Positions 37,502 to 60,522 of a stretch of 64,000 bases of DNA are shown here, in pieces (positions within the stretch are counted from its first letter, which is position 1; each line of letters opens with the position of its first letter). Both the position numbers and the translations under genes were made by a program. Origin of the DNA: Marinimicrobium agarilyticum DSM 16975 (GTDB lineage Bacteria > Pseudomonadota > Gammaproteobacteria > Pseudomonadales > Cellvibrionaceae); assembly GCF_000423345.1 (NCBI RefSeq), contig NZ_KE384008.1, positions 1-64,000 of the forward strand, given 5' to 3'. The notes under the pieces are model-generated. The model was not told the DNA's origin. It saw only the letters and a list, made by a program, of their open reading frames with translations, and searched no databases.

Positions 37502-37554
37502 AAGCGGAACCTCAGGAATTGGCATCGTAAGTGGCCCGGCAGGGAATGATACAA

Positions 37555-37604
37555 TGTAAATCATTAAAAGTCATATAGATCCAAAATAAATCATTAGTTG
37601 TCAT
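37555..37604 (-). promoter_or_regulatory. Five-unit 10-bp-phased ATGAT-type array between the aldolase paralogue and PL26
   Basis: On the minus strand from 37604, consecutive 10-mers read ATGACAACTA, ATGATTTATT, a degenerate unit, ATGACTTTTA and ATGATTTACA. This is the clearest array of its kind in the window. It lies 54 bp before the aldolase start and 90 bp before the PL26 start, so it can serve both. Confidence 0.6.
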
Positions 37605-37694: not shown

Positions 37695-40400
37695 ATGAAT
37701 CGACGCGAATTTCTCAAAAGAGGTGGTGTTGCCGCCTCTCTTCCTCTGACGCTTCAGGCCCTCTCGAGCGGCTGTGCCACGTCTGCTCCAGCGTTTGCGC
37801 CCACTCGCCAGGCCGGTCATCTGAGTTGGCTGGAGGGTGAAGAGCCGGCGGTCAAAGCGGGAACCACCTGGGGTCAGCCGTGGCCCGAGGGGGAGCTTTC
37901 AACGGGGCAGGCGCTTCGTCTGCTCGCAGAAGACGGGCAAGCGGTGCCCCTGCAGAGCTGGCCGACGGCCTATTGGCCGGACGGTAGCGTCAAGTGGACG
38001 GCCCATGCCGTGCCGGCGGGCGTGGTGCTTGGCAAACAGTTTCGGGTAGAGAAGGGCAGTGGCCCCGCTCCCCAGCAGCCGGTTCGCGTGAGCTCATTGA
38101 GTGGTGCCATTGAGGTGGATACCGGCCCTGTCACCTATTCGGTACCGACGTCCGGTGAGTATCTGATCCGTTCCATGGCACGAAGCGGTGCCGTTGTGGC
38201 GAAGAACGCGCGTATGGTCGGGCTGGTCCAGGATGAAGTGGACCCGGGGGCGTCGGTTTCCCGAGTGTCCTCTTTTCAGTCACGGACCGACCGTGTCACC
38301 GTGGAGCAGGAAGGCCCCGTGCGAGCGGTCATCAAGCTCGAGGGTGTCCACCAGATTGACGCCGGCAAAGAGTGGCTGCCGTTCACGTTGCGCCTCTACT
38401 TTTACAGCGGTGCGGAGTCGCTGCGAGTCAGCCACAGTTTTATTTTTGATGGCGACGATCAGAAAGACTTTATTCGTGGTTTGGGGCTGCGCTTTGACGT
38501 TGTGCAGCGCGATGAACTTTACGATCGCCATGTGCGGTTTGTCGGGGAAAACGATGGTCTGTGGGCTGAGTCTCCGAAAGGGATAACCGGACTGCGTCGG
38601 GACCCGGGCAAGGCCGTGCGCGATGCGCAAATTGCCGGTCGGAAAACGCCCCCGCTGGATGAGTGGAACCCCGGCATCACCCAAGGGTTGCACTGGATTC
38701 CCGTCTGGAATGACTTTACGCTTTCACAGCTGAATGCCAACGGCTTCACCATCAAAAAACGCACGAAAGCCGGCCATGCCTGGATCAATGCCGATCAGGG
38801 TTGCCGGGCAGCGGGAACCGCCTATCTGGGCGGCGTTTCCGGTGGCGTACTCTTCGGTATGCGGGACTTCTGGCAGCTGCATCCTGTTCAAATCGACCTT
38901 CGCAACGCCGGTGGGGAAGAGGCCGAGGCAACGCTCTGGTTTTGGTCCCCCGAGGCACCGCCCATGGATGTGCGCTTCTACCACGATGGCCTCGGGCAGG
39001 AAACGCACGAACAGCAGCTGGATGCGCTGAAGATTACCTATGAAGATTACGAGCCCGGCTTCGGCACGGCTCACGGGGTAGCCAGAACAACGGATTTTGT
39101 GCTCTGTGTGCTGGGGGCGACGCCCTCGCGCGCCACGACCGTGGACTGGGCGAACGAGATTCGCCGCCCGGGGCAAGTGATTGCCGCCCCCGAGGATATC
39201 CTGAAGGCCGGCGTCTTCGGTGGTTTGTGGAGCCTGCCTGACCGCTCTTCCCCGAAGAAAAAACAGATTGAAGACCGACTTGCCTGGCAGGTGGATTACT
39301 ATCGCCAGCAGGTGGGTCAACGCCACTGGTATGGTTTTTGGGACTACGGCGATGTCATGCACACTTACGATGTCGACCGTCACGTCTGGCGCTACGACAT
39401 CGGCGGCTACGCCTGGGACAATTCCGAACTCTCTCCGGATTTATGGTTGTGGTACTCATTCCTGCGCAGTGGTGACCCCGAAACCTTCCGCCTTGCCGAG
39501 GCCATGACCCGCCACAATCGGGATGTGGATATTTACCATCTCGGCCGTTTCCGGGGGCTGGGTACCCGGCACAATGTCCAGCACTGGGGTTGCAGCGCCA
39601 AACAGTTGCGAATCAGCACGGCGGCGTACCGTCGTTTCCATTATTTTCTGACCGGTGATGACCGTACCGGGGATGTGCTCGATGAAGTCGTCGATGCGGG
39701 AGAGGCCCTCGCCAGAGTCGACCCCACCCGCAAGCTGTCCAACCGGGACCCGGTGCCGGGCCCGGAGCGCATGCAGGTGGGCACTGACTGGGGCTCGATT
39801 GCGGCCAACTGGCTGACGGCCTGGGAGCGGACCGGGGACGATCGGTACCGGCAGCGGCTGGTGGAAGCGATGCGTACCATCGGCGCTCATCCCGATGGGT
39901 TTTTTGCGGGCACTTACGGTTTTGATCCGGCCACCAAGGAACTGCTCGCGCCCGCTGATCGAGAGGCGGAGGTCTCACACCTAAGCGCGGTCTTCGGGCT
40001 GGTGGAGATCAATGCCGAGCTGATCCAACTGCTCGATGTTCCCGAGTACAAGGCCGCCTGGCTGAAGTACTGTCGGCTGTACAATGCGAGCGATGAACAG
40101 AAGAAAGCGGCCGTGGGCCGGGCGTTCGGCACTCACCTGGAAGCGCCGCACTCTCGCCTGACCGCCTATGCGGCGGCTCAGGATGCGGATTCGGCCCTGG
40201 CCAAGCGTGCCTGGAAAGAGTTCCGCTTACCTCAGGAATTCGCCCTTCAGTGGACGGGCGAGCGCCAGGCGGTGCTTGACGTTAAAGGCCCCCAGGTGCT
40301 CAACCCCGTGGTGGAAGCTCCCTGGCTGTCGACCAACGACAGTTCTCAGTGGGGATTGGCCGCCATCCAGAATTTGGCGTTGATTGGTGATGCGTTGTAA
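37695..40400 (+). CDS. PL26-like exo-rhamnogalacturonan lyase, Tat-exported
   Basis: 901 residues, similar in length and motifs to the PcRGLX family (PL26), which releases unsaturated galacturonosyl-rhamnose from chain ends of RG-I. MNRREFLKRGG is a twin-arginine signal; a Cys in LSSGCATS could allow lipidation, though the lipobox is imperfect. The N-terminal RIFT-barrel part has GTTWGQPWPEGE and SWPTAYWPDGSVKW (residues about 56-115), then LYFYSGAESLRV and DFIRGLGLRF. The (alpha/alpha) barrel part has YGFWDYGDVMHTYDV, NSELSPDLWLWYSF and RHNVQHWGCSAKQLR. A paralogue lies at 49870. The GH105, mutarotase and YesU-like genes follow, probably as one transcript. Confidence 0.88.
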   Translation: MNRREFLKRGGVAASLPLTLQALSSGCATSAPAFAPTRQAGHLSWLEGEEPAVKAGTTWGQPWPEGELSTGQALRLLAEDGQAVPLQSWPTAYWPDGSVKWTAHAVPAGVVLGKQFRVEKGSGPAPQQPVRVSSLSGAIEVDTGPVTYSVPTSGEYLIRSMARSGAVVAKNARMVGLVQDEVDPGASVSRVSSFQSRTDRVTVEQEGPVRAVIKLEGVHQIDAGKEWLPFTLRLYFYSGAESLRVSHSFIFDGDDQKDFIRGLGLRFDVVQRDELYDRHVRFVGENDGLWAESPKGITGLRRDPGKAVRDAQIAGRKTPPLDEWNPGITQGLHWIPVWNDFTLSQLNANGFTIKKRTKAGHAWINADQGCRAAGTAYLGGVSGGVLFGMRDFWQLHPVQIDLRNAGGEEAEATLWFWSPEAPPMDVRFYHDGLGQETHEQQLDALKITYEDYEPGFGTAHGVARTTDFVLCVLGATPSRATTVDWANEIRRPGQVIAAPEDILKAGVFGGLWSLPDRSSPKKKQIEDRLAWQVDYYRQQVGQRHWYGFWDYGDVMHTYDVDRHVWRYDIGGYAWDNSELSPDLWLWYSFLRSGDPETFRLAEAMTRHNRDVDIYHLGRFRGLGTRHNVQHWGCSAKQLRISTAAYRRFHYFLTGDDRTGDVLDEVVDAGEALARVDPTRKLSNRDPVPGPERMQVGTDWGSIAANWLTAWERTGDDRYRQRLVEAMRTIGAHPDGFFAGTYGFDPATKELLAPADREAEVSHLSAVFGLVEINAELIQLLDVPEYKAAWLKYCRLYNASDEQKKAAVGRAFGTHLEAPHSRLTAYAAAQDADSALAKRAWKEFRLPQEFALQWTGERQAVLDVKGPQVLNPVVEAPWLSTNDSSQWGLAAIQNLALIGDAL

Positions 40401-40451
40401 ACGCCGGACCGGTTTTTCATTATTATTAATACTCTAGAGGTTGTAAGAAGT

Positions 40452-41558
40452 ATGCCTACCGTTGCACATAACATCGAATTCGCGACTGTCCGGAACAGCA
40501 TCGACAAGCTGATCGACAACTTGGTTAACATCAAAGATGAAACCGGTGAGTTCCTGCTCAAGCTGGAAGACGGCCGGGTGATTGACACCAAAGGCTGGGC
40601 CGGCTGGGAATGGACCCACGGTATTGGTCTTTACGGTCTGATGAAGTACTGGGACATCACCGGTGATGAAAAGCCCAAAAAGATCATTGAGGACTGGTTC
40701 TCTGATCGTCTGAAAGAGGGCACTCCGACCAAGAACGTGAACACCATGTCGCCCTTCCTCACAATGGCCTACATGCACGAGCGCACCGGGGAACGGAGCC
40801 ACCTGCCTTACCTCGACGTCTGGGCCGAGTGGGTCATGCGGGATATGCCGCGCACCACTGAAAATGGCCTGCAGCATATTGTCTACAACTCCGAAAATTA
40901 CCAGCAGCTGTGGGACGACACCTTGATGATGAGCGTCATGCCGCTGGCCAAAATCGGCCTGCTGCTCGATCGCCCTCACTATGTCGAGGAAGCCAAGCGC
41001 CAGTTCATGCTGCATGTAAAATATCTGGCGGATCGTAAAACCGGGCTCTGGTTCCACGGTTGGACCTTCGATGGTAACCACAACTTCGCCGATGCCCTTT
41101 GGGCGAGAGGCAACAGCTGGGTCACCATTTCCATCCCGGAGTTTATTGAGCTGCTGGACTTGCCCAAGACCGATGGTCTGCGCCTGTTCCTGGAAGAGAC
41201 CCTGGAGGCACAAGTCAAAGCCCTGCAGGAAACCCAACACAGCGACGGCCTCTGGCACACGTTGCTCGACGATCCTGACTCATATCTGGAAGCCTCGGCC
41301 GCGGCCGGATTTGCGTACGGTATTCTCAAAGGGATTCGCAAAGGCTATCTCGATAAAAAATACGAAGAAGTCGGCATCAAGGCGGTCAAGGCCGTGCTGA
41401 AGAACATCAGCGCCGATGGCGAGCTTCAGCAGGTGTCTTTCGGTACCCCGGTCTTTGACGACCTGCAGGGCTATCGTGACATTCCGCTGACGTCCATGCC
41501 CTACGGCCAGTCCATGGCCATCCTGCTTCTGGTCGAGTACATGAACTACTACATCTGA
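40452..41558 (+). CDS. GH105 unsaturated rhamnogalacturonyl hydrolase, cytoplasmic
   Basis: 368 residues without signal peptide, close in size to Bacillus YteR/YesR. It hydrates and splits unsaturated galacturonosyl-rhamnose to rhamnose and 5-keto-4-deoxyuronate. Motifs: WEWTHGIGLYGLMKYW (residues about 50-65), LWDDTLMMSVMPL with the catalytic Asp (near 157), WFHGWTFDGNHNFADALWARGNSW, and SYLEASAAAGFAYGI. The lack of export signal means its substrate reaches the cytoplasm, in contrast to the exported GH105 at 56503. It follows PL26 by 51 bp; a G+C-rich hairpin follows the stop. Confidence 0.94.
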   Translation: MPTVAHNIEFATVRNSIDKLIDNLVNIKDETGEFLLKLEDGRVIDTKGWAGWEWTHGIGLYGLMKYWDITGDEKPKKIIEDWFSDRLKEGTPTKNVNTMSPFLTMAYMHERTGERSHLPYLDVWAEWVMRDMPRTTENGLQHIVYNSENYQQLWDDTLMMSVMPLAKIGLLLDRPHYVEEAKRQFMLHVKYLADRKTGLWFHGWTFDGNHNFADALWARGNSWVTISIPEFIELLDLPKTDGLRLFLEETLEAQVKALQETQHSDGLWHTLLDDPDSYLEASAAAGFAYGILKGIRKGYLDKKYEEVGIKAVKAVLKNISADGELQQVSFGTPVFDDLQGYRDIPLTSMPYGQSMAILLLVEYMNYYI

Positions 41559-42957: not shown

Positions 42958-43041
42958 GGGGATATCGAGGCCGATGGTTCCGGCCCTCGCTCCAAGTGGG
43001 CACGGCAGCATTGAAAATCAGTGACAGTACGCGAGGCGAGC

Positions 43042-44235
43042 ATGCAAGAAACATGGCGGTGGTTTGGGCTGGACGATCCGGTGACTCTGGAGCATATTCT
43101 ACAGGCCGGGGCCACCGGTGTGGTCACCGCCCTACACCAGGTGCCCACGGGGGACGCCTGGTCTCTTGAGGACATCCTGGAGCGCAAGGCCATGATCGAG
43201 GCGCAGGGAATGAACTGGGCCGTGGTGGAAAGTGTGCCTTTGCACAACGACATCAAAACCCGCTCTGGAAATCATCAGGCCTACATTGAAAACTACAAGA
43301 CCAGCATCCGGAACCTGGGAAAAGCGGGAGTCACCACTCTGTGCTACAACTTTATGCCGGTGGTGGACTGGACTCGAACGAACTTGAGCTATGTGTTGCC
43401 CAACCGGAGCCAGGCCCTGCGGTTTGAGATGAGTGATTTCGCCGCCTACGACGTCCACATACTCCAGCGAGCCAACGCCGCCGCCGATTACACTCCAGAG
43501 GTGCTCGCCCGCGCGCAAGCGCGCTTCGGCTCAATGAGCGACGAGGAAAAACAATTGCTGGAGAAAAACATCATCGCCGGCCTGCCCGGGGGGGAAGGCT
43601 CTTATGACCGGCCCGGTATCAAGAGCGCCATCGAGCGGTTCATTGCCCTGGGCAATGAGGGCATGCGAGCCAACCTGTTTTCCTTCTTGCGTGAGGTAGT
43701 GCCTGTGGCTGAAGAGGCGGGGGTGCGCCTGTGTATTCATCCCGATGACCCCCCGTTCTCGCTTTTCGGTCTGCCCCGTGTCGTGTCCACCGCAAGTGAT
43801 GTACGCGCACTGCTTGAGGCGGTGCCCAGCGAGGCCAATGGCCTGACGCTGTGCGCCGGGTCTTACGGCGCCCGCAGTGATAATGATCTGCTGAAAATGG
43901 CCGAGGAGTTCGGCCCGCGAATCTATTTCGCCCACCTGCGAAATGTGACGCGGGAAGCGGACGGCTCTTTTTACGAAGCGGATCATCTGGGCGGCGATGT
44001 CAACATGGTAGGGCTGATTGACCGTTTGCTGAGCGAGGAGGCGCGTCGACGGGCCGACCAAAGCCCCCAGTGGGAGATTCCCATGCGCCCCGACCACGGG
44101 CACCTGATGGCGGATGAAATCGGCAAGCCGGGGGTCAATCCGGGTTATTCCTACGGGGGTCGAATGAAAGGCTTGGCGGAACTCAGGGGCATAATTCACG
44201 CGTTACAGGCCGTGCGTTCACAAGCCACGGGCTGA
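43042..44235 (+). CDS. uxuA: Mannonate dehydratase
   Basis: 397 residues from ATG at 43042, with GAGG five bases upstream; the GTG at 43021 has no ribosome site. The enzyme dehydrates D-mannonate to 2-keto-3-deoxygluconate in glucuronate breakdown. TIM-barrel and metal-site motifs: WAVVESVPLHNDIK, CYNFMPVVDWTRT, LCIHPDDPPFSLFGLPR, LCAGSYGARSDNDL, IYFAHLRNV and RPDHGHLM. Its neighbours are a GntR regulator on the other strand and, further right, GH2 and GH115, so it likely handles glucuronate removed from RG-I side chains. The uronate isomerase and mannonate reductase needed upstream are not in the window. Confidence 0.95.
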   Translation: MQETWRWFGLDDPVTLEHILQAGATGVVTALHQVPTGDAWSLEDILERKAMIEAQGMNWAVVESVPLHNDIKTRSGNHQAYIENYKTSIRNLGKAGVTTLCYNFMPVVDWTRTNLSYVLPNRSQALRFEMSDFAAYDVHILQRANAAADYTPEVLARAQARFGSMSDEEKQLLEKNIIAGLPGGEGSYDRPGIKSAIERFIALGNEGMRANLFSFLREVVPVAEEAGVRLCIHPDDPPFSLFGLPRVVSTASDVRALLEAVPSEANGLTLCAGSYGARSDNDLLKMAEEFGPRIYFAHLRNVTREADGSFYEADHLGGDVNMVGLIDRLLSEEARRRADQSPQWEIPMRPDHGHLMADEIGKPGVNPGYSYGGRMKGLAELRGIIHALQAVRSQATG

Positions 44236-44246
44236 GTGCCCACCTG

Positions 44247-44942
44247 TCAGAGCGGGTTGTTGAAGTGCGTGGCAGCGGCCTCGGAGGCATTTTCCAGGTG
44301 CCGGCGCATGGCGTTGCGGGCCGCATCAGGATCCCGCGCGGCCAGCGCATCGATAATCGCCTGGTGGTCTTCCAGTATCGGGTGGATACCCTCGCGCCTT
44401 ATGCGTTCGGAGAAGGCAGTATGCAGCTCGGACTGGTTGCGTAGCTCCCACAGCCAGTCCACGACCGCAAAAAACGCGCTATTCTGACTGGCGTTGGCAA
44501 TAATGTTGTGAAATTTCCAGTCCGCCTGTTCCGATGCATCCTCCTGTTTTTCCTCTTCTTCCATTTCCCGGTACGTCTGGCGCAGCTGTTGCAGTTGCTC
44601 ATCAGTGATACGGGTAGCCGCCAAAGCACAGGCCTCGGGTTCCAACAGCATCCGTGTTTCCAGGATTTCGAAAGGGCCGATACCCTTATCTTTGACTTCC
44701 AGCTTTGGCCTTTTCTTGGTCACATAAATACCCGAACCGGTGCGGATCTCAATCACCCCCTGCAGCTCCAGCGCGATCATCGCCTCCCGCACGGTGGGGC
44801 GGCTCACGCCCAGGCGTTCGGCAAGGTCCCGCTCCGCCGGAAACTTCTGGCCGGGCTTGATCTTGCCCTCGCTAATAAAGCGGGATAACTGGTTGGCTAC
44901 CTTGATGTACAAGCGGTCTGGCTTGACGGCTTCAAACTGCAT
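44247..44942 (-). CDS. GntR/FadR-family transcriptional regulator, probable glucuronate-branch regulator
   Basis: 231 residues. The N-terminal winged helix (IKPGQKFPAERDLAERLG, then SRPTVREAMIALELQGVIE, residues about 28-68) is the GntR signature. The C-terminal all-helical FCD domain has ETRMLLEPEACALAATR and WKFHNIIANASQN with metal-binding residues, as in UxuR/ExuR and other FadR-subfamily members. It is convergent with uxuA (11 bp apart) and divergent from the GH2-GH31-PL26-GH115 run. A uronate such as mannonate or fructuronate is the likely effector, by analogy. Paired sites at 42932 and 45226 may be its operators. Confidence 0.92.
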   Translation of the reverse strand: MQFEAVKPDRLYIKVANQLSRFISEGKIKPGQKFPAERDLAERLGVSRPTVREAMIALELQGVIEIRTGSGIYVTKKRPKLEVKDKGIGPFEILETRMLLEPEACALAATRITDEQLQQLRQTYREMEEEEKQEDASEQADWKFHNIIANASQNSAFFAVVDWLWELRNQSELHTAFSERIRREGIHPILEDHQAIIDALAARDPDAARNAMRRHLENASEAAATHFNNPL

Positions 44943-45141
44943 GGCGTCATCCTTTAGGGGGAGCGGGCGGAGTGCGCGATGGGCGGCGTTCTCGGCTCCA
45001 GGTCGGGTCAGGGCGCAAGTTTACTATGGCCATGGGGGGATGCCAACTTGAGCCAAAGGCCTTGGCCCGCGCTCGACAAGCGGGTTTTGGGCGGGGATTG
45101 GTGCTGAAAAATTAAACAAAATTGCTTATAAATAAGTTATT

Positions 45142-45171
45142 ATGATTAGATGTAACCAATAATGACCGTTA
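45142..45171 (+). promoter_or_regulatory. Three-unit phased ATGAT-type array upstream of GH2
   Basis: ATGATTAGAT, GTAACCAATA and ATGACCGTTA follow each other in a 10-bp register. The site lies between the GntR gene and GH2, 289-318 bp before the latter. Confidence 0.4.
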
Positions 45172-45225
45172 TTTTGGTGAATAGGCTTCTTTCCAAGCAA
45201 AATTGAGCTAGAATAATCTTTTAAA

Positions 45226-45251
45226 ATTGGTAATACAGCTTTGCCGGTTTT
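45226..45251 (+). promoter_or_regulatory. Candidate GntR operator upstream of GH2
   Basis: The 26 bases starting ATTGGTAATACAG share 20 positions with the site before uxuA. It lies 209-234 bp before GH2 and just before a structured leader. Confidence 0.4.
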
Positions 45252-45369
45252 CCCCGGCTGAGGCATACTGACCCCCGGTTGCGCCATTGGCTTTGAATGT
45301 CGTATGACGCACCGTCCCTGGATGATCTCTTACGAGTATCCTTAGCGGGCAGCAATGCCCGCTTTTTTT
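45238..45369 (+). ncRNA. Candidate structured leader or small RNA ending in a terminator
   Basis: The stretch has no open frame but several possible stems: GCCGG/CCGGC near 45243-45258, CATAC/GTATG near 45266 and 45302, a GCC-ATT-GGC hairpin inside, and a final terminator at 45344-45369. It lies 90 bp before GH2 on the same strand. It could be an attenuator that responds to a metabolite or a protein, or an independent small RNA. I do not recognise an Rfam class, and the stems were found by eye. Confidence 0.35.
45344..45369 (+). terminator. Orphan intrinsic terminator 90 bp before GH2
   Basis: AGCGGGC and GCCCGCT pair around AGCAAT and are followed by seven T residues. No gene on the plus strand ends before it, so it ends a leader or small RNA. 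Confidence 0.85.
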
Positions 45370-45459
45370 GTAGGTCCCGCTGGGGAGGGAAGCCTGTGAG
45401 AGCTCCCCAAGGCGCCGATAAACGTCAATAGTAATAGTAAGAATGACGAGGAAAGCGGT

Positions 45460-47232
45460 ATGAAATATTGGCTTGTTGTGTTTTTCCTCTGGCTGCCCTG
45501 CGCGAACGCCGTTGAGTTGCTCCAGAATACCGAGGCCCGGACCTATCACAGCCTGAATGGTCAGTGGAACGTCATCGTCGATGCTTTCGATGTCGGGGAC
45601 AAAAGGCAGTTCTACCGTGACGCTTCCCCACAATCTCCGTCAGACCTTCTTGAGTACAATTTTGACAACGCCCAAAAGCTCAACGTGCCGGGCGACTGGA
45701 ATACCCAGGATGACACCTTATTTCGTTATGAGGGCACCGTCTGGTATCAACGGGACGTAAATATCGATAAACAGGCCGGGACGAAATACCTCCTGCATTT
45801 CGGGGCCGTCAACTACCTGGCCCAGGTCTACCTGAATGGCGAGTTGCTTGGTCAGCATGAAGGTGGCTTCACGCCGTTTCAGTTTGATGTGACGAAACAG
45901 TTGACTGACGGACACAACACCGTTGTCGTGAAGGTCAATAACCGCAGAGAGCCCGACTACATTCCCACCATGAGTACCGATTGGTGGAACTATGGAGGGA
46001 TCACCCGCCCGGTTAAGCTGATCGAGCTCGAAGAGCGTTACGTGTCCGATTACGCCTTCGAATATGTATCCGGTGAGCAACCCGCGATCAATCTCCGCGT
46101 TGAAACCGCGGGCGCTATAAAGAAGGGCGGGCAGGTCCAGTTTGCCATACCGGAGCTGGGCGTGAGCGAGTCCATCATGCTGAACGAGCAAGGGGTTGGC
46201 CAGGTCCGGGTTTCCGTCGAACCCCGGCTGTGGTCCCCGGAGTCCCCCAAACTGTATGAGATCAGGCTCGCGTTTGAGGGAAGTCTGATTACCGATAAAG
46301 TCGGTTTTCGCGATATTGATATTGCGGGCACAGAAATTCTGTTGAACGGTGAACCGGTTTTTCTCCGGGGTATATCGCTTCACGAGGAGGTGCCCTATGG
46401 CGCCGGACGAGCCTGGAGCGAGGATCACGCGAGAACACTGCTGACCTGGGCCAAGGAGCTGGGAAGCAACTATGTTCGCCTGGCTCACTACCCCCACAAT
46501 GAAGCCATGTTGCGTATGGCGGATGAAATGGGCCTGCTGGTCTGGGCTGAAATTCCCGTGTACTGGGATATTCAGTTTGATAATGAGGAGGTCTACAAAA
46601 AGGCCGAACAGCAGTTCACGGAAATGCTGGAGCGCGATAAAAACCGTGCCTCTGTCATCCTGTGGTCCGTGGCCAACGAGACCCCCAAGAACGAAACCCG
46701 TACGGAGTTTTTGAGCGCGTTGGTGGATAAAGTCCATCAGCTCGACCCGACTCGCCTGGTGACCGCCGCCATCAATACCCAGAGCACCACCGAGTACGGC
46801 CACCGTATTGACGACCCATTCGCGGAAAAGGTGGACGTTATCGGTATCAATTCCTATTGCGGCTGGTATCAGGACACACCCGAAGAGTGTGCGGACTACC
46901 GTTGGGTATCCGATTACGAAAAGCCCATCATTGTCAGCGAGTTCGGTGCCGGCGCCCTTCAGGGGCACCACGGCAACGCCGATCAAGTGTTCACCGAGGA
47001 AAACCAGGCCAAGGTCTACCGTTACAACCTTGAGATGCTGGATAACATGGAACACCTACGGGGCGTCTCTCCCTGGATTCTCAAAGACTTTCTCTCTCCT
47101 CGTCGACCCCTGGCTCACATTCAGGACTATTGGAACCGAAAAGGCTTGTTGTCCGAGAACGGCATCAGGAAGAAAGCCTGGTATGTGATGCACGACTGGT
47201 ATAAGACGAAATCCGACCCAGAGAAGCAATAG
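45460..47232 (+). CDS. GH2 beta-glycosidase, probable beta-glucuronidase/galacturonidase
   Basis: 590 residues with a Sec signal (WLVVFFLWLPCANA). The GH2 order is seen: sugar-binding jelly roll (LNGQWNVIVDAF to about 200, with FGAVNYLAQVYLNG and NYGGITRPV), immunoglobulin-like domain (about 200-285), and TIM barrel. Acid/base is Glu407 in SVANETPKNE and nucleophile Glu494 in IVSEFGAGAL. The length and the NKTG-like absence of extra C-terminal domains fit the beta-glucuronidase size class rather than LacZ. It is exported, and with GH115 and uxuA points to removal of uronic acid side groups. Substrate is inferred. GH31 starts one base after its stop. Confidence 0.92.
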   Translation: MKYWLVVFFLWLPCANAVELLQNTEARTYHSLNGQWNVIVDAFDVGDKRQFYRDASPQSPSDLLEYNFDNAQKLNVPGDWNTQDDTLFRYEGTVWYQRDVNIDKQAGTKYLLHFGAVNYLAQVYLNGELLGQHEGGFTPFQFDVTKQLTDGHNTVVVKVNNRREPDYIPTMSTDWWNYGGITRPVKLIELEERYVSDYAFEYVSGEQPAINLRVETAGAIKKGGQVQFAIPELGVSESIMLNEQGVGQVRVSVEPRLWSPESPKLYEIRLAFEGSLITDKVGFRDIDIAGTEILLNGEPVFLRGISLHEEVPYGAGRAWSEDHARTLLTWAKELGSNYVRLAHYPHNEAMLRMADEMGLLVWAEIPVYWDIQFDNEEVYKKAEQQFTEMLERDKNRASVILWSVANETPKNETRTEFLSALVDKVHQLDPTRLVTAAINTQSTTEYGHRIDDPFAEKVDVIGINSYCGWYQDTPEECADYRWVSDYEKPIIVSEFGAGALQGHHGNADQVFTEENQAKVYRYNLEMLDNMEHLRGVSPWILKDFLSPRRPLAHIQDYWNRKGLLSENGIRKKAWYVMHDWYKTKSDPEKQ

Positions 47233-49756: not shown

Positions 49757-49869
49757 GCCTCGTTTTCCTTACTGAAGGGACTGGTTGGGCGCACAGTTAG
49801 ACGCTGTGTCGCCAAGCCATAAAAATTGAGAGACCCGAAGAACATAAAAACCACGAATGTAGGATGGTC

Positions 49870-52593
49870 ATGACCATGAGATTTCCCAGAACTTTCGCTT
49901 TGTTAACGCTCGCGTTGCTTCCCTGGACCTGGGTCACTGGTGCTCAGGCAGAGGAAAAGCCCGAGGCACAGCTGCATTGGCTGAAGCACGATACGGCCCG
50001 GGACGCGGTGGGTACCACATGGGGAACGCCTTGGCCCCAGGGGGCGGTCGAGCCGGAAAGTGAATTTACCCTGAGCCCGGAATCCGGCCAACCCCTGCCT
50101 GTGCAGAGCTGGCCGCTGGCCTACTGGCCCGATGGCTCGCTGAAGTGGAGCGGGCATGCGATCGCCCCTCTTGAGGTGGACTCTATCGCGCTGACGCTTC
50201 GCCCCGGCGACGCCACGCAACCAGCGCAGGCGCTGACCGTGAGTGAAAACGAAGAGAGCATTCGCGTGAACACCGGCTCCATTCAGGCGGTCCTCCCAAA
50301 ATCCGGCAACCGGTTAATTCATTCAATTACCCGTGAAGGTCGGGACACCTTGCACAACGGGCGTCTCGTCATCCTGTCCCAAGGGCAAGCCGAAGCCGAA
50401 GTGGGGGAGCCGCTGACGGTGAACGCTTTCACCGGTCGCCTCGATAAGGTGACACTCGAGCAGGCCGGGCCGGTGCGCGCCGTGGTCAAGCTCGAGGGCA
50501 AGCACGTCGGCGAAAATGGACGAGCCTGGATTCCTTTCGTGGTGCGCCTATACTTTTACGCCGGAGATGATTCGGTGCGTATGGTCCATACCATGATCTA
50601 TGACGGTGACCAGAAGCGGGACTTCATTCGAGGGGTGGGCGTTCGTTTCGATGTGCCCATGGAGGGCCCACTGCACGACCGGCATGTGCGCTTTTCCGGG
50701 GAGGACGGTGGACTCTTTGCGGAAGCCGTGCGCGGGATCACCGGTTTGCGGCGAGACCCCGGTGAGGCGGTACGCGACGCACAAACCGCTGGTCGGGCCA
50801 CGCCGCCCCTGGACGAGTGGGCCAGAAGCGTTTCCGAGCGCATAGACGTGATTCCGGCTTTCGGGGATTACACCCTCTCACAACTGACCGCCGACGCTTT
50901 TGAAATTCGCAAACGCACCCAGCCCGGATTGGCCTGGCTCGACTCCGCCGAGGGCGGGCGTTCGAGCGGGCTGGGTTACATTGGCAGCCCCGAGGGTGGA
51001 GTGGCCTTTGGCATCCGTGATTTCTGGCAAAGCCATCCCTCGCAACTGGATATTCGAAACGCCAGAACCGATAACGCCGAAGTGACCATGTGGCTCTGGT
51101 CGCCGCAAGCCCGGCCCATGGATATGCGTTTTTATCACGACGGTATGGGGCTGGATACCCACGAAAAGCAGCTCGATGCCATGGGGGTAACCTATGAGGA
51201 TTACGAACCCGGGTTTGCGAGCGCCACGGGCGTAGCCCGCACCAGCGAGCTGCGCCTATGGGCGTTGCCGGCCACACCGGACCGTGAAACCACGGTCCAG
51301 ATGGCTCGAACCCTGGCCCAGCCACCACAAATGGTCGCCCGTCCCAAAGACTACGAAGCGGCCGGTGTTTTCGGGGCCGCCATCTGGGACCTGCCGGATC
51401 GTTCCACCCCCGCCAAAACCGCGATTGAAAATCAGGTCGACTTTTATCTGGATCACTACCTGACTCAGGTGGAGGAGCACAACTGGTACGGTTTCTGGGA
51501 TTACGGCGATGTGATGCACACTTACGACCACGATCGCCACACCTGGCGTTATGACGTCGGTGGTTTCGCCTGGGCCAACTCCGAGCTTTCACCCGACATC
51601 TGGCTCTGGTATTCCTTCCTGCGTACCGGCCGGGCGGACGTCTTCCAGATGGCCGAGGCGATGACCCGCCACACCGGCGAGGTGGACGTGTACCACCTCG
51701 GGCGTTTCGAAGGTCTCGGTTCCCGTCACAATGTCAGGCACTGGGGCGACAGCGCGAAACAGTTGCGTATCAGTACGCCCGCCAACCGTCGCTTCTATTA
51801 TTTCCTGACAGCGGACGAGCGGGTCGGGGACTTGATGCGCGCGACCCTGGGAGCCGAACGCCGCTTATTGGACGTGCCACCGCTGCGCAAACTCGATCGC
51901 CCCCAGCCAGATTTCACCGGTAAGCCGTATTCCTTGATGATGGGGTTGGGAACGGACTGGAACTCCGTGGCCGCCGCCTGGCTGACCGAATGGGAGCGCA
52001 CGGGAGAGCCGGAATATCGGGACAAGCTCTTGCGCGCGATGCGCAGTATCGGTGAATTCGAACACGGTCTGCTTTCGTCGGGCACCGCTTACGATCCAGA
52101 CACCGGTCGCTTCTACCACGTGGGGGAGGGTGTCTCCGGTTCACATCTGGCCATGGTGTTCGGGGGCGTGGAGATCAATGCCGAGCTGATTCAACTGCTG
52201 GACGTGCCCGAGTACGAAGCCGCGTTCATCCAGTATGGTCGCTTTTTCAATGCCTCTTCTGAGGAGAAGGCCGAGATCATTGGCCAACCCTATAACCGAA
52301 ACCTGAATCTGGGGCAGGCGCATTCGCGCATGACGGCCTACTCCGCCTGGAAGTTGGACGATGAGGCTCTGGCAGAACGGGCCTGGAACGAATTTTTCAG
52401 TGGTAGAGCCGGCATCAGGATCTTTGGTACACCCTATCCGACCAGAACGGTCAGCCCCCCCGAGGTGCTGGCCCCGGTGACCGAAGCTCGTGGGGTATCC
52501 ACCAATGCCGTGTCGCAATTCGGTCTGACGGCGATTCAGATCATGGCACTGATTGGCGAGGAGGCGCCGGAAGAAATTCCGGAGCGCGATTGA
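49870..52593 (+). CDS. PL26-like exo-rhamnogalacturonan lyase, Sec-exported paralogue
   Basis: 907 residues from ATG at 49870 (AGGA five bases upstream; ATG at 49864 overlaps that site). It has the same family motifs as the gene at 37695: GTTWGTPWPQGAVE, SWPLAYWPDGSLKW, DFIRGVGVRF, YGFWDYGDVMHTYD, SPDIWLWYSFLR and RHNVRHWGDSAKQLR. The export signal is different: an ordinary Sec peptide (FALLTLALLPWTWVTGAQA) instead of a twin-arginine one. Both copies are full length, so they may differ in place or in preferred decoration of the substrate. It overlaps or directly precedes the GH115-CE12 gene. Confidence 0.88.
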   Translation: MTMRFPRTFALLTLALLPWTWVTGAQAEEKPEAQLHWLKHDTARDAVGTTWGTPWPQGAVEPESEFTLSPESGQPLPVQSWPLAYWPDGSLKWSGHAIAPLEVDSIALTLRPGDATQPAQALTVSENEESIRVNTGSIQAVLPKSGNRLIHSITREGRDTLHNGRLVILSQGQAEAEVGEPLTVNAFTGRLDKVTLEQAGPVRAVVKLEGKHVGENGRAWIPFVVRLYFYAGDDSVRMVHTMIYDGDQKRDFIRGVGVRFDVPMEGPLHDRHVRFSGEDGGLFAEAVRGITGLRRDPGEAVRDAQTAGRATPPLDEWARSVSERIDVIPAFGDYTLSQLTADAFEIRKRTQPGLAWLDSAEGGRSSGLGYIGSPEGGVAFGIRDFWQSHPSQLDIRNARTDNAEVTMWLWSPQARPMDMRFYHDGMGLDTHEKQLDAMGVTYEDYEPGFASATGVARTSELRLWALPATPDRETTVQMARTLAQPPQMVARPKDYEAAGVFGAAIWDLPDRSTPAKTAIENQVDFYLDHYLTQVEEHNWYGFWDYGDVMHTYDHDRHTWRYDVGGFAWANSELSPDIWLWYSFLRTGRADVFQMAEAMTRHTGEVDVYHLGRFEGLGSRHNVRHWGDSAKQLRISTPANRRFYYFLTADERVGDLMRATLGAERRLLDVPPLRKLDRPQPDFTGKPYSLMMGLGTDWNSVAAAWLTEWERTGEPEYRDKLLRAMRSIGEFEHGLLSSGTAYDPDTGRFYHVGEGVSGSHLAMVFGGVEINAELIQLLDVPEYEAAFIQYGRFFNASSEEKAEIIGQPYNRNLNLGQAHSRMTAYSAWKLDDEALAERAWNEFFSGRAGIRIFGTPYPTRTVSPPEVLAPVTEARGVSTNAVSQFGLTAIQIMALIGEEAPEEIPERD

Positions 52594-52642: not shown

Positions 52643-55600
52643 ATGCGGGGATTGTTGCTATTGTGCCTCCTTTTCCCAATGGTTGCGCAGGCAGAAGAGA
52701 TTCGACCGTTTCCTGCGGAGGTGGCCCCTGAAAATGTGCCATCAACCGCGTTTCCGCTGGTGGCTGATGGTCGTGCCGCCCCTCTGGTAGTGGCCAATGA
52801 TGCCGCCAGCGTGATCAAAATTGCCGTGCACGATCTCGCTGACGATGTAGAGCGCGTGACCGGAGTACGCCCGGCTATTCGCCACCGTCCGCCAGACAGC
52901 GCGCCTTATGTTCACGTGGGAATCGCTCCGGCGCTGGAAGATCGTTGGGAAGCATTTCGGCTTTCCGCGGACTCGCGGGTGCTGGCGGTCGAGGGCGCTG
53001 ACCCTCGCGGTGTCGCGTACGGCCTCTACGAGCTCTCGCGTCGTATTGGTGTCTCGCCCTGGTATTGGTGGGCCGATGTGCCCGTGGAACGGCGGGACCA
53101 GCTGTATCTGAGCGCTGGCCGTGAACCGGTCGATGCGCCCGCCGTGCAATACCGCGGCATCTTCATCAACGATGAGTGTTGGGGGTTGGGTGCCTGGGCC
53201 GCGAAAACGTTTGAACCGGCGGTGGGCACGCTCGGGCCGAAAACCTATGAACGGATTTTCGAACTTTTGTTGCGCTTGCGCGCCAACGCCATCTGGCCCG
53301 GCATGCACCCCTGCACCACACCGTTTCATCAGGTAGAAGGTAATAGCGACCTGGCCGACGATTACGCCATCGTGGTCGGCTCCAGCCATGCCGAGCCCAT
53401 GTTGCGCAATAATGTGGGGGAGTGGGACGAGCCCAAAGACCATTTTAACTTCCTGTCACACCGCGACAAAGTTCTCAACTACTGGGAAGAAAGAGTGAAG
53501 GAGCGCCGTTCGGGCGAAAGCCTCTGGACGTTGGGCATGCGCGGCATTCACGACAGCGGCATTGTTGGTCCGGACTCGCAGGAAGAACGCATCGGGGTTC
53601 TGGAAGATATTTTTAAAGCCCAGCGTCACCTTCTGGCCGAACATCTCGGTGACGGTGACCCCACCGAAGCGGCGCAGATCTTCGTGCCCTACAAAGAAGT
53701 CCTCAAGGATTACAACGCGGGCCTGAAGGTGCCAGAGGATGTGATGATCGTCTGGCCCGACGACAACTTCGGTTACGTGCGTCGTTATGCCACCCCTGAG
53801 GAACGGGAGCGGCCCGGTGGTCTGGGTGTTTATTACCATCTGTCCTACCTGGGCTCGCCGCTTTCCTGGCTCTGGTTCGACTCCCAGTCGGTTTCCCTCG
53901 TCTGGTCGGAAATGACCCGCACCTACGAGCAGGGGGCACGCTCATTCTGGGTGGGCAATGTCGGCGACCTAAAAGCCCACGAGCTGAGCACCGAGTTTTT
54001 TCTCGATCTCGCCTGGAACGCGGATCGGACCAGCCCGGACGCGCCGATGCAATTTCTGCACGATATGGCGGCCCGGGATTTTGGGCCCGAGCATGCCGAT
54101 GCCATTGCCGCCATCTGGCGGCGCCATCAGCACCTGGCCTTCGCGCGCAAGCCGGAACACCTGCAGTGGCATCTCTCGCTGGAACCCTATGAACCGACCG
54201 AGCTGACCGATACGGAGATACATCGCCGTCTGGAAGCCTATCGAGCCCTGGTGGCGGATACGGCGCAGGCCTCCAAAGCGTTACCGGAAGCGGCACAGGA
54301 TGCCTTCTTTCAACTGGTGGAATATCCGGTTCGGGCGGCGGCCGCGGCCAATGAGCGCTATTTTCTGATGGAACTGGCCCGTCGGCAGAATGCCCGTGGT
54401 GCCGAGGTTGCGCAAACGACCGTTGTCAGAGCCGAAGACGCCGCGCACCGAATCGAATCGCTGACTCGGCGATACAACCAGGAGCTCGCCGGCGGCAAGT
54501 GGCAGCATATTCTGACCGCCGGTGGCGTTTCCCCTGACGATTGGCCACGCTTTCAACCCGACCCCATTCCCCCGCTGGGCTCACAGACGGACGTGATCAG
54601 GGACGCTTTGGTGTCGGAATCGAGCGACCAGCCTTTTCAGGTTCAGAAGGCGCCCCCCGACGCGCGAGCGGGGGATTTCTACGAATCCGAGGGTGTGGTC
54701 TCCATCAACGCCGGACACTTCACCGGCCGAAAGGATCATGGTGAGGGCGGCTGGCGCTCGGTTGAAGGACTGGGCCGCACTGGTTCGGCGGTGACGGTAC
54801 TCCCCTCCACTCTGAACATTGATCCCGACTCCGCTCCGCGACTCAGCTATCGCTTTCATGTGGCCACTGGAGGGAGGGCCCGGGTTCATCTTCGGCTCTT
54901 GCCGACCCACCCGATTGTGCCCGGCAACAGTTTGCGCCTGGCGCTCGCATTGGATGATGGCGACGCGTTGCCGGTGACCGTGACCGAGGGCTTTGATACC
55001 TATAGCGATGAATGGAAAAATCGGGTGTTGGCCAATGCCACTGAAACCACCCTGGAGCTGAATGAAAAACTTGAACCGGGCTGGCATACGCTGCATCTGG
55101 TGGCGGTGGACCCCGGTGTTGTCGTGGATAAAATCGTGATCGATTTCGGGGGGCTTCAGCCCTCCTATGACGGTCCGACGGAAACTCGGGTCGAGCACAT
55201 GAGCGCCGGGGAAACCGAAGCGGTTTCCTATCGCTTGGATTTCGGTTCCGGCGCCGTGGCGGATGGCTACACAGGGGTTGGATCGGAAACGCGGTACTCC
55301 GCTGAACGGGGATATGGCTGGGTGGGTACCAATACGCCTGAGTGCAGTAAGAATGAGGTGGATGCGCTGCGAGGCGATGTCTGCGTCGCTAACGAGCCTT
55401 TCACTCTTGCGGTCGATGTTCCCGAAGGGAATTACAATGTGTCGGTTATCTTCGGCGCATCGGAATCCGCGTCGGAGAACACGGTGAAGGTGGAGGCGCG
55501 CCGGTTGATGCTTCATTCGGTTTCGACAGAGGCGGGGAAGCGAAGGAGCGCGACCTTCACCGTGAACCGGCGAAGCCCGCAGCTTGAAGGGTCGGCAAGG

Positions 55601-56482
55601 GTTTCCCTGAACGCCCGTGAGCAGGGCCCGCCGATGATCGCGCACTGGGATAAGCACCTGACCATTGAGTTCCTAGGCAATCCCGCCGCCGTGGCTGCAC
55701 TGCATATCGAGCCGGCGCCGGCAGCGACTACCGTATTCATTGCGGGGGATTCGACCGTAACGGATCAGCGTAATGAGCCCTGGGCCGGTTGGGGGCAGAT
55801 GTTGCCTTCCTTTTTCAAGCCGGGCGTGGCCATCGCCAATCACGCCGAATCGGGCCGCGCCCTTTACAGTTTTGAATCAGAACATCGGCTGGAGAAAATT
55901 CTCGACACCATGAAGCGCGGAGATTACCTGTTTATTCAGTTCGGCCACAACGACCAGAAAGACAAGAGTGACGGTGCCGGGCCCTTCACCACCTACCAGG
56001 AAAATTTGCGCGAGTACATTGCGGCGGTGCGCAATAAAGGCGGCATCCCCGTGCTGATCACGCCCATGGAGCGTCGCCGTTGGAGTGAAGGAAAGCCCGG
56101 AGAAACCCTGACGGATTTTGCCGTGGCGATGCACCAAGTGGGAGAGGAGCAGGGCGTGCCGGTCATTGATCTCCACGGCATGAGCCTGGAGCTCTACGCG
56201 GCGTTGGGAGAGTCAGGTTCCAGAAAAGCGTTTGTGCACTATCCGGCGAACACCTTTCCCGGTCAGGATCAGGCACTGAAAGACAATACTCACCACAGTC
56301 CCTACGGGGCCTACGAGTTGGCTCGTGCCGTGGTTAAGGGTATCCGGGAAAAGGTGCCCGGGCTGGCGACGCATCTGCGCGAGAATGTGCCTCCGTTTGA
56401 TCCCGCCGAACCGGACGCCCCGGATGCCGTGTTCGTCCCGGCAAGCCCGGTGTTTGAGTTGGAGAAACCCGAAGGAAATTGA
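52643..56482 (+). CDS. GH115 alpha-glucuronidase fused to a CE12 rhamnogalacturonan acetylesterase
   Basis: 1279 residues from ATG at 52643, which gives a clean signal peptide (MRGLLLLCLLFPMVAQA); 52595 is an alternative. Residues about 30-640 are GH115-like: RGVAYGLYELSRRIGVSPWYWWADVP, QYRGIFINDECWGLG, LRANAIWPGMHPC and VWPDDNFGYVRR. A beta-rich C-terminal GH115 part reaches about 850. A second beta-sandwich (SYRLDFGSG to IEFLGNP, about 855-1010) leads to an SGNH esterase of CE12 type with Ser1037 in IAGDSTVT, QFGHNDQ and His1217/1218 in DNTHHSPYGAYE. It should remove (methyl)glucuronic acid and acetyl groups. The coupling of these two activities in one chain is unusual. Confidence 0.92.
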   Translation: MRGLLLLCLLFPMVAQAEEIRPFPAEVAPENVPSTAFPLVADGRAAPLVVANDAASVIKIAVHDLADDVERVTGVRPAIRHRPPDSAPYVHVGIAPALEDRWEAFRLSADSRVLAVEGADPRGVAYGLYELSRRIGVSPWYWWADVPVERRDQLYLSAGREPVDAPAVQYRGIFINDECWGLGAWAAKTFEPAVGTLGPKTYERIFELLLRLRANAIWPGMHPCTTPFHQVEGNSDLADDYAIVVGSSHAEPMLRNNVGEWDEPKDHFNFLSHRDKVLNYWEERVKERRSGESLWTLGMRGIHDSGIVGPDSQEERIGVLEDIFKAQRHLLAEHLGDGDPTEAAQIFVPYKEVLKDYNAGLKVPEDVMIVWPDDNFGYVRRYATPEERERPGGLGVYYHLSYLGSPLSWLWFDSQSVSLVWSEMTRTYEQGARSFWVGNVGDLKAHELSTEFFLDLAWNADRTSPDAPMQFLHDMAARDFGPEHADAIAAIWRRHQHLAFARKPEHLQWHLSLEPYEPTELTDTEIHRRLEAYRALVADTAQASKALPEAAQDAFFQLVEYPVRAAAAANERYFLMELARRQNARGAEVAQTTVVRAEDAAHRIESLTRRYNQELAGGKWQHILTAGGVSPDDWPRFQPDPIPPLGSQTDVIRDALVSESSDQPFQVQKAPPDARAGDFYESEGVVSINAGHFTGRKDHGEGGWRSVEGLGRTGSAVTVLPSTLNIDPDSAPRLSYRFHVATGGRARVHLRLLPTHPIVPGNSLRLALALDDGDALPVTVTEGFDTYSDEWKNRVLANATETTLELNEKLEPGWHTLHLVAVDPGVVVDKIVIDFGGLQPSYDGPTETRVEHMSAGETEAVSYRLDFGSGAVADGYTGVGSETRYSAERGYGWVGTNTPECSKNEVDALRGDVCVANEPFTLAVDVPEGNYNVSVIFGASESASENTVKVEARRLMLHSVSTEAGKRRSATFTVNRRSPQLEGSARVSLNAREQGPPMIAHWDKHLTIEFLGNPAAVAALHIEPAPAATTVFIAGDSTVTDQRNEPWAGWGQMLPSFFKPGVAIANHAESGRALYSFESEHRLEKILDTMKRGDYLFIQFGHNDQKDKSDGAGPFTTYQENLREYIAAVRNKGGIPVLITPMERRRWSEGKPGETLTDFAVAMHQVGEEQGVPVIDLHGMSLELYAALGESGSRKAFVHYPANTFPGQDQALKDNTHHSPYGAYELARAVVKGIREKVPGLATHLRENVPPFDPAEPDAPDAVFVPASPVFELEKPEGN

Positions 56483-58775: not shown

Positions 58776-60317
58776 TCAGGGCTGCTCTTCAAGGATGGCT
58801 TCAAGCTCATCGGCCACGATACGCGCGGTGAATCTGGCACCGTCGAGGGAGGTATGCGTGTGCTCATCGGCGAAGAATGATTCCACATGCTCAGGCCCCA
58901 GCTCGTCGTAGCGATCGGCGACCAATTTGTGCAGGTCTATCAGGTGGACTCCGCTTTCTGCCGCGATTTGTCGTGCCCACTGAGGGTAGCTGTTTTCCGG
59001 GCGGACAATCTGCTCTGCGCTTTCATCCCAGATTTTCCGGGGCACCGGGGTAAAGAGCACCGGTGTCACGCCGCGGGCCATCGCTTCACCGATCATTTTG
59101 CGCAGGTACCAACCGTAAGTGTGAACCGTCTCGGTTTCGCCCGTCAGCCTATTGTCGATGGTTTCCTGTGCTTCGCTGATACCATCAATCGTGCCGCGCG
59201 CACGTTGTTTGTCATTGAGCGCCGCGGAATCATTGTGGCCAAACTGGATCAGCATATAATCGCCCGGGCGGGTCATGTTCAAGGCTCGCTTCCAGTGGCC
59301 TCCCGTCACGAAAGTCCGGCTGCTGAAACCGCCGATGGCGCGATTGACCAGGTTGTATTGATTGCTGTCGAGATAGTGCCCGAGGAAGTCGCCCCAGCCC
59401 CACTGGCCGCCGGCGCCATCGCCCCAGCCGTTGCGAACGGTGGAGTCGCCCACCATGAAAATGCTGGTTTTTTCGGGTGACGCCACCACGGGTAAGCGTA
59501 AGAAAGTCCAGTCATAAGCGCGGACCTCGCGACCTTTTTCGGAATACAGGTCCGCCGCCAGAGTAGGGCGCAGCCCTTTCAGGGCCGATACGATGGTCTC
59601 GGCATGGATCTCGGCGCCGGCCGCGTTGAAGTGCGTGTGGTCTTTCGGATAGAGCGCCGATACCTTTTCGGGCCCCAGCTGTTCCAGCTTGTCAGCGACC
59701 AGGTTGGTCACGTCAATAAACGGTGTATCCAGCTCCCAGGCCAACTGATGCATCCAGTGCCCATATTGGCCGTTACGCCGCTCGATTCTGCCTTGATCCC
59801 ACCGATTGCGTGCGGTCAGCGAGAGCAGTACCGGCGTTGCGTCTTTGGCGCGGACGTCCGCGACCATCTGACGGATGTAGTGGCCGAAGGTATAGACGGT
59901 TTCCTCTTTTCCGGTCACCTGATTGGATATGTCGGTCTGCTCGTCTCCCAGGCCGGGCAGGGAGCCGCGCGCGCGGCTGTCGTCGTTGATTTCACCGGCG
60001 TCGTTGTGACCGAATTGGATAAGCACCAGGTCACCGGGCTGTACCTCTTCCATCATGGATTGCCACAGACCTTCGGTGATAAAGGTGCGGCTGCTTCGGC
60101 CGCCGCGAGCCCGGTTCTCAACGGTTACCTGTTTCTTGTCGAAATAGGTCTGCAAGAGCGCGGCCCAGCCCTGGTGGTCTTTATCGCTGTAGGAGGCGGC
60201 GGTGGAGTCTCCCGCGATGAAAATGTGTTGGGGGCGCAGGTCGTCGGCCAGGCAATGCTGTCCGAGCATGAGAGTGAGGACGAGGGTGATAAAACCGGTG
60301 GCTCGTCGTGACTGCAT
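58776..60317 (-). CDS. Tandem-domain CE12 rhamnogalacturonan acetylesterase
   Basis: 513 residues from ATG at 60317, preceded by AGAGGA at seven bases; the frame upstream to 60476 has no such site. A Sec signal (ITLVLTLMLGQHCLA) is followed by two complete SGNH domains. Domain 1 (about 30-250) has Ser38 in IAGDSTAA, FGHNDAGE and KDHTHFNAAG; domain 2 (about 283-510) has Ser292 in MVGDSTVRNG, FGHNDSAA and DEHTHTSLDGA. Both keep Ser, Asn and Asp-x-x-His, so both should be active. CE12 enzymes remove acetyl groups from galacturonate in RG-I, clearing the way for lyases. It is first in the operon with the TIM-barrel and GH105 genes. Confidence 0.94.
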   Translation of the reverse strand: MQSRRATGFITLVLTLMLGQHCLADDLRPQHIFIAGDSTAASYSDKDHQGWAALLQTYFDKKQVTVENRARGGRSSRTFITEGLWQSMMEEVQPGDLVLIQFGHNDAGEINDDSRARGSLPGLGDEQTDISNQVTGKEETVYTFGHYIRQMVADVRAKDATPVLLSLTARNRWDQGRIERRNGQYGHWMHQLAWELDTPFIDVTNLVADKLEQLGPEKVSALYPKDHTHFNAAGAEIHAETIVSALKGLRPTLAADLYSEKGREVRAYDWTFLRLPVVASPEKTSIFMVGDSTVRNGWGDGAGGQWGWGDFLGHYLDSNQYNLVNRAIGGFSSRTFVTGGHWKRALNMTRPGDYMLIQFGHNDSAALNDKQRARGTIDGISEAQETIDNRLTGETETVHTYGWYLRKMIGEAMARGVTPVLFTPVPRKIWDESAEQIVRPENSYPQWARQIAAESGVHLIDLHKLVADRYDELGPEHVESFFADEHTHTSLDGARFTARIVADELEAILEEQP

Positions 60318-60522
60318 GCGGAGTTCCTCTTGGGTCTGACGGTGGTTGATTCCCGTGCTTTTATTGTCTTTTAACGCTGGATACCGGGCAGTAGGCGGTG
60401 ACGTAACGACCGGCGTTGCCGCATCGGCGTTAAAAAGTCTGTTGAATGTTGTGCGGCCTCCTCCCATGTCTGGCACATCACTCTGGTGTTGAGTCGTTGG
60501 TCAGACAGGAGAGGGAAAACCG

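Follow-up and report, generated by a model that had tools for sequence, protein, structure and literature searches.

A GH115-CE12 fusion in RG-I degradation loci of a small clade of Cellvibrionaceae, a candidate bifunctional debranching enzyme

Glycoside hydrolases of family GH115 are alpha-specific and inverting, and in xylan they cut an alpha-1,2 uronic acid linkage, the same type of linkage as that between galacturonic acid (GalA) and rhamnose in RG-I. Beet RG-I, and mucilages and gums of Malvaceae that are likewise acetylated, carry glucuronic acid (GlcA) in beta linkage to O-3 of GalA; such a residue would fit a GH115 in its location, not in its anomer. BtGH115A (5by3) is a 4-O-methyl-alpha-glucuronidase acting on decorated arabinogalactan, a reported substrate that conflicts with beta-linked GlcA (PMC9063842), the form found on arabinogalactan side chains (PMC8424115). 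In glucuronoxylan, an acetyl group on the xylose that bears MeGlcA hinders GH115, and deacetylation by an SGNH esterase boosts GH115 activity ninefold (PMC5863359). The SGNH esterase that frees GH115 sites in this way, FjoAcXE, has the role that we propose below for the CE12 half of a fusion protein, although there the two enzymes are separate proteins, the substrate is xylan and the esterase belongs to a different SGNH family (PMC5863359). Acetylation of RG-I affects O-2/O-3 of GalA and, in the case of okra, O-3 of Rha as well (PMC11360243); alpha-linked GlcA on RG-I was not reported in the literature searched, where nothing decisive was found. A marine Maribacter PUL with a GH115 beside two GH105 and a GH78 was interpreted as a galactan/arabinogalactan locus, so a GH115 near GH105 is not unprecedented (PMC11036162).

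The gene described here lies in a window of 64,000 nucleotides (the whole stretch of DNA that was analysed). An uninterrupted ORF on the forward strand (52643..56482, from an ATG at 52643 to a stop at 56482; an alternative in-frame start, TTG, is possible at 52553) encodes 1279 aa with a signal-like leader, MRGLLLLCLLFPMVAQA, at the N-terminus, and the domain order is GH115, GH115_C, YxiM/CE12-type beta-sandwich and SGNH (CE12-like). The GH115 N-terminal domain (52700..53131, residues ~20-163, limits approximate) was delimited from the secondary structure of the AlphaFold model and from alignments with 5by3 and 4zmh, and is followed by the GH115 catalytic domain (53132..54160, residues 164-506; Glyco_hydro_115, PF15979, E 5.8e-117) and GH115_C (54677..55183, residues 679-847; PF17829, E 7.6e-43). 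Beyond a variable linker (55184..55228, residues 848-862), which is 40-50% identical between fusions, the CE12 half comprises an AGA/YxiM galactose-binding-like beta-sandwich (55229..55687, residues 863-1015, from PF21254 and the 2o14 alignment; AGA-YXIM_GBD match to residues 863-944, E 2.6e-10) and the SGNH/CE12 catalytic domain (55730..56482, residues 1030-1279, from PF13472 and conserved blocks; Lipase_GDSL_2 match to residues 1035-1180, E 9e-14), all on the forward strand. AlphaFold modelled the GH115 catalytic core and the CE12-type half with confidence (mean pLDDT 83), and in a Foldseek search with this model 5by3 ranked first, ranks 1-11 were all GH115, and 2o14 at rank 12 was the first non-GH115 match. 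GH115_C was poorly modelled (low pLDDT, model residues 598-829), the alignment used by AlphaFold having misplaced the GH115_C of unfused homologues, and because of this misalignment we conclude nothing on how the two active sites lie to each other. Pfam, sequence and Foldseek results agree on the GH115-CE12 fusion that an earlier note had claimed for this gene, and it recurs in four other species with 75-79% identity to the query; since five species share the fusion, we reject the possibility that an error of assembly or reading frame had merged two genes.

By sequence, the nearest solved structure to the first half is BtGH115A (5by3, E 2e-145), ahead of all xylan-active GH115 structures. The BoAgu115A residues D206, R328, D332, E375, Y420 and H422, the functional importance of which is known from mutagenesis (PMC3879575), occur unchanged in the query and in almost all of the homologues collected. 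The earlier note had named the loss of catalytic residues as an objection to its reading; all six equivalents are retained, and a degenerate GH115 was ruled out on these grounds. Three further BoAgu115A residues, W249, D424 and V426, which are common to the three aligned xylan-active references, are H, S and L in the query, and His, Ser and Trp in BtGH115A (position 249 was gap-shifted in the MAFFT map, and local and HMMER alignments agree on His). W249 of BoAgu115A contacts O3 of GlcA, and D424 was proposed to tune D206 (PMC3879575). The query also retains F203, W245 and M248, the residues lining the 4-O-methyl channel. The predicted GH115 half therefore lacks residues typical of xylan-active GH115s and resembles BtGH115A, its best structural and sequence relative, in having His at 249 and Ser at 424; unlike the query, BtGH115A has no esterase fusion and carries Trp, not Leu, at position 426. 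The xylan alpha-1,2-glucuronidases BoAgu115A, SdeAgu115A and wtsAgu115A share with the query the catalytic residue equivalents and GH115_C, but they fall in a different clade and their W249, D424 and V426 are replaced in it.

In a FastTree phylogeny of GH115 domains, some deeper branches of which were weakly supported, the fusions and an unfused GH115 of a related genome (G021) formed one clade (support 1.0), and this clade was nested in a wider group (0.95) that took in the GH115s of G034, G066, G156, G160, a Verrucomicrobia MAG (L004) and an Oxalobacteraceae MAG (L005) and fell outside both xylan clades. The query thus shows neither the W249/D424/V426 signature nor the xylan-clade position of the xylan alpha-1,2-glucuronidase subgroup, and xylan-type GH115 specificity was ruled out by residue signature and tree position. 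We scored 20-kb stretches for RG-I markers (PL11, PL26, GH105, GH42 and rhamnose genes), discarding CBM-only matches, namely the two of L207 and L210, where nothing but the CBM6/35 domain of the PL11 protein had matched. RG-I loci accounted for 9/10 of the query's GH115 clade against 0/20 of the other GH115 loci in the same bacterial family (Fisher p 7e-7, relatedness ignored), the sole exception in the clade being G021, where the GH115 stands alone with no RG-I lyases nearby. Outside the family, PL11 adjoins the GH115 in L005, so the clade extends beyond it, and in L004 a GH105 lies 5 kb from the GH115. The comparison of loci makes a good case that the fusion belongs to RG-I degradation, and it points to a GH115 lineage tied to RG-I rather than to xylan.

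The second half has the conserved SGNH blocks GDST (Ser1037), GHND (1101-1104) and DNTH (Asp1214, His1217). Its nearest solved structures are YxiM (2o14, E 2e-24) and the Aspergillus rhamnogalacturonan acetylesterase (1deo, E 1e-12), CE12 enzymes that have SGNH with GDST, GHND and DxxH as in the query; YxiM also has the same type of beta-sandwich before SGNH. Both are stand-alone proteins, whereas the esterase of the query follows a glycoside hydrolase. The NCBIfam PaeY model scored the CE12 half at 58 bits, against a cut-off of 1000 for that model. The closest relatives of this half come from Verrucomicrobiota and Aestuariibacter, and some of its relatives adjoin pectin enzymes (GH28 and a pectinesterase in L032; a Pel9A-like pectate lyase in L064).

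The earlier note had placed the gene in an RG-I locus, and judged by its predicted genes the window is a complete RG-I degradation locus, in which PL11, PL26 and GH105 occur together with L-rhamnose catabolism. It encodes two PL11, two PL26, two GH105, GH42, GH31, a GH2 resembling beta-glucuronidase, UxuA, a two-domain SGNH esterase, CE2, rhamnose isomerase, aldolase and kinase, and three TonB-dependent receptors; the genes scanned yielded neither an endo-galactanase nor an arabinofuranosidase, and the window genes scanned yielded no xylanase. On the forward strand lie a PL11 rhamnogalacturonan lyase (16156..18144), a PL11 lyase with a C-terminal CBM6/35 (22126..26055), a PL26 and a GH105 that are conserved partners in fusion loci (37695..41558), and a PL26 exo-rhamnogalacturonan lyase (49864..52593), which directly precedes the fusion in every fusion locus and here is separated from it by 49 bases. 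The second esterase, with two SGNH (CE12/PaeY-like) domains, is conserved beside the fusion (58776..60476, reverse strand). The earlier note had also taken GH2 and uxuA as supporting neighbours. They belong to a uxuA-FCD-GH2 block (43021..47232, forward strand, with the FCD regulator on the minus strand) that is found in this species only and is missing from the corresponding place in the fusion loci of G002, G087, G089 and G091 and in G001, where DUF1961 is followed directly by GH31 or PL26; because the block is species-specific and absent in the other fusion loci, GH2 and uxuA are not conserved partners. The GH2s of G002, G001 and G021 are only ~47% identical and lie at other places in the genome, and G087 and G034 had none at the threshold used. 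Of the earlier overall reading, the fusion and the RG-I setting stand, the catalytic residues are intact, and the support from GH2/uxuA falls away.

The fusion was found in 5/144 genomes of Cellvibrionaceae, which belong to two genera (G000 and G002 of the window's genus; G087, G089 and G091 of the second). In all five carriers it lies within an RG-I locus, after PL26 and before an AP_endonuc_2 protein and the two-domain esterase, and its synteny with PL26, GH105, DUF1961 and the second esterase holds across the five species, between which the domains of both halves are ~63-90% identical. No second GH115-CE12 fusion was found among ~1,400 other genomes probed: none with the CE12-half probe in 369 genomes of the class, 388 of Verrucomicrobiota, 395 of Bacteroidota and 246 of Planctomycetota (phyla named after the seed loci), none with the GH115 family model in 183 Bacteroidota and 180 Verrucomicrobiota (long ORFs partly checked), and none in the best 80 genome loci or in plasmid records. 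Since the searched genomes are samples, these figures speak for rarity, not absence; the fusion, which the earlier note had allowed might be widespread and already characterised, is rare by these counts and uncharacterised in the literature searched. As predicted from sequence, it is a new domain combination of two known families, confined so far as sampled to a small clade.

In a third species of the window's genus (G001) the flanking genes are the same, but only CE12 is present and the whole GH115 half is gone; the ORF reads from the leader peptide of the fusion (QAAEIRPLP) directly into the start of CE12 (KFDFG). By this junction, G001 is apparently a case of clean in-frame loss of ~2.5 kb that left CE12 behind the GH115 leader. 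The CE12 of G001 branches from within the fused sequences, with G002 as its sister, which makes loss the simpler reading. Because G001 keeps the locus without the GH115 half, the coupling of GH115 and CE12 is not essential. A neighbouring genus has GH115 alone, and in G034 and G066 an unfused GH115 and an unfused CE12 flank GH42 in an RG-I locus; their CE12 comes from a different sub-branch from that of the fusion, which argues that GH115 and CE12 were paired more than once, once as a fusion. In the Verrucomicrobiota locus L183, CE12 and a xylan-like GH115 lie 1.4 kb apart.

Our main reading, to which we assign a probability of roughly 0.6, is that the fusion is a secreted bifunctional debranching enzyme for acetylated, uronic-acid-decorated RG-I. 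It would be a secreted protein, periplasmic or outer, working as a two-headed enzyme of RG-I breakdown: the CE12 half would remove O-acetyl groups from the GalA of RG-I or from nearby sugars, and the GH115 half terminal (4-O-methyl-)GlcA from the same residue or its neighbour. As in glucuronoxylan, acetylation would stand in the way of the glucuronidase, so deacetylation would come first and two heads on one chain would allow the two cuts in sequence, after which PL11, PL26 and GH105 could pass. What we infer is what each half does, in which order the two act and which linkage is cut, and GlcA is put forward as the substrate from family membership only; that acetyl and GlcA may lie close together on the substrate is a reasonable supposition, in view of the acetyl hindrance of GH115 in glucuronoxylan and of the GH115-deacetylase fusions among xylan-type GH115s. 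The evidence in its favour consists of the fusion itself, the intact sites, the consistent location in RG-I loci, the missing xylan signature and the independent co-location of unfused GH115 and CE12. On the other side, the known GlcA of arabinogalactan is beta-linked and GH115 is alpha-specific, and the two halves could have different substrates and merely share secretion. If the fusion is active as proposed, RG-I would carry a uronic acid decoration next to acetyl, frequent enough to select a fused enzyme, and the fusion would point to a pectin decoration not clearly described by plant chemistry; it would also bear on the question whether BtGH115A-like enzymes act on alpha- or beta-linked uronic acid (PMC9063842). 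The fused, GH115-only and CE12-only proteins of related species form a natural set for testing the benefit of fusion.

It is possible, if rather unlikely, that the halves act on different glycans, the GH115 like BtGH115A on (Me)GlcA of arabinogalactan side chains attached to, or co-occurring with, RG-I and the CE12 on the RG-I backbone, with the fusion fixing no more than co-expression and co-secretion. The best solved relative is the one arabinogalactan-active GH115 (PMC13059095) and shares its pocket changes with the query, GH42 and GH2 are present in the locus, arabinogalactan side chains do occur on pectin (PMC8424115), and G001 dispenses with the GH115 half; however, BtGH115A lies outside the query's clade in the tree and is not its sister, that clade resides in lyase-based RG-I loci, and the gene scan described above gave neither endo-galactanase nor arabinofuranosidase.

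We think it improbable that the two genes were joined by chance in one small clade, as a neutral event that leaves the halves functionally uncoupled. The limitation of the fusion to two genera, the variable linker and its renewed breakage in G001 would suit such an origin, but it was retained in five species at the identities given above for both halves, and against it stand the independent unfused pairing in G034 and G066 and the neighbour pair in L183.

We also consider it doubtful that this GH115 clade, instead of cutting GlcA from a side chain, cuts the end of the RG-I backbone, i.e., the alpha-1,2 bond from a non-reducing GalA to rhamnose, in which case the fused CE12 would first deacetylate that same GalA and the hydrolysis would be a new activity for GH115; the conserved F203, W245 and M248 channel, which accepts the 4-O-methyl of GlcA, speaks against it.

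Least probable is a xylan-type glucuronidase joined to an acetyl xylan esterase and acting on xylan attached to RG-I, since, although most characterised GH115s are xylan-specific (PMC13059095) and xylan-type GH115s do occur in fusion with an SGNH esterase (L186) or a polysaccharide deacetylase (L187), the query has all three signature residues replaced, lies outside both xylan clades, has no xylanase detected among the window genes scanned, and carries a CE12/YxiM-like esterase whose relatives adjoin pectin enzymes. These two Verrucomicrobiota proteins resemble the query in that a GH115 is fused to a deacetylase-type domain, but the GH115 is of the xylan type and the partner is a PAF-acetylhydrolase-like esterase or a polysaccharide deacetylase, not CE12.

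The whole GH115 module of the GH115-CE12 fusion (52643-56482 of the window) is, judging from sequence, lost in-frame in G001, the third species of the genus (L106:14758-16170). The CE12 protein encoded at this locus carries at its N-terminus the leader of the fusion.

In all five species with the fusion, the gene is accompanied nearby by that of a two-domain SGNH/PaeY-like esterase (window 58776-60476), the two esterase domains lying in tandem within one protein, and most related RG-I loci contain a DUF1961 protein (window 41973-42782) at 51-80% identity. A uxuA-FCD-GH2 block (window 43021-47232) is present in the window's species only, the rest of the RG-I gene order being conserved. The window also encodes the rhamnulose-phosphate aldolase half of RhaD without the dehydrogenase half (36206-37564), in addition to a second, full-length RhaD-type protein (10568-12676).

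The Verrucomicrobiota genome G591 encodes both a tandem GH115 gene pair (L185:2680-8784), the second member of which shares 55% identity with the GH115 of the fusion, and, of the unfused CE12 proteins recovered from outside the window's genus, the closest (64%). Also in Verrucomicrobiota, GH115 of the xylan type is joined to a PAF-acetylhydrolase-like SGNH domain (L186:1293-5048) or to a polysaccharide deacetylase (L187:2022-5549). GH115 is combined with a GH10 xylanase in one protein of Filimonas zeae (1199 aa; L048:9965-13561) and with GH67 in a Tannerella MAG (1508 aa; L083:7880-12403), the latter a single chain with two alpha-glucuronidase families. CE12 of the fusion's kind is joined to a GH106 alpha-L-rhamnosidase in one chain of Thermophagus xiamenensis (1374 aa; L157:1613-5734), the gene of which is adjoined by PL11- and GH105-like genes.
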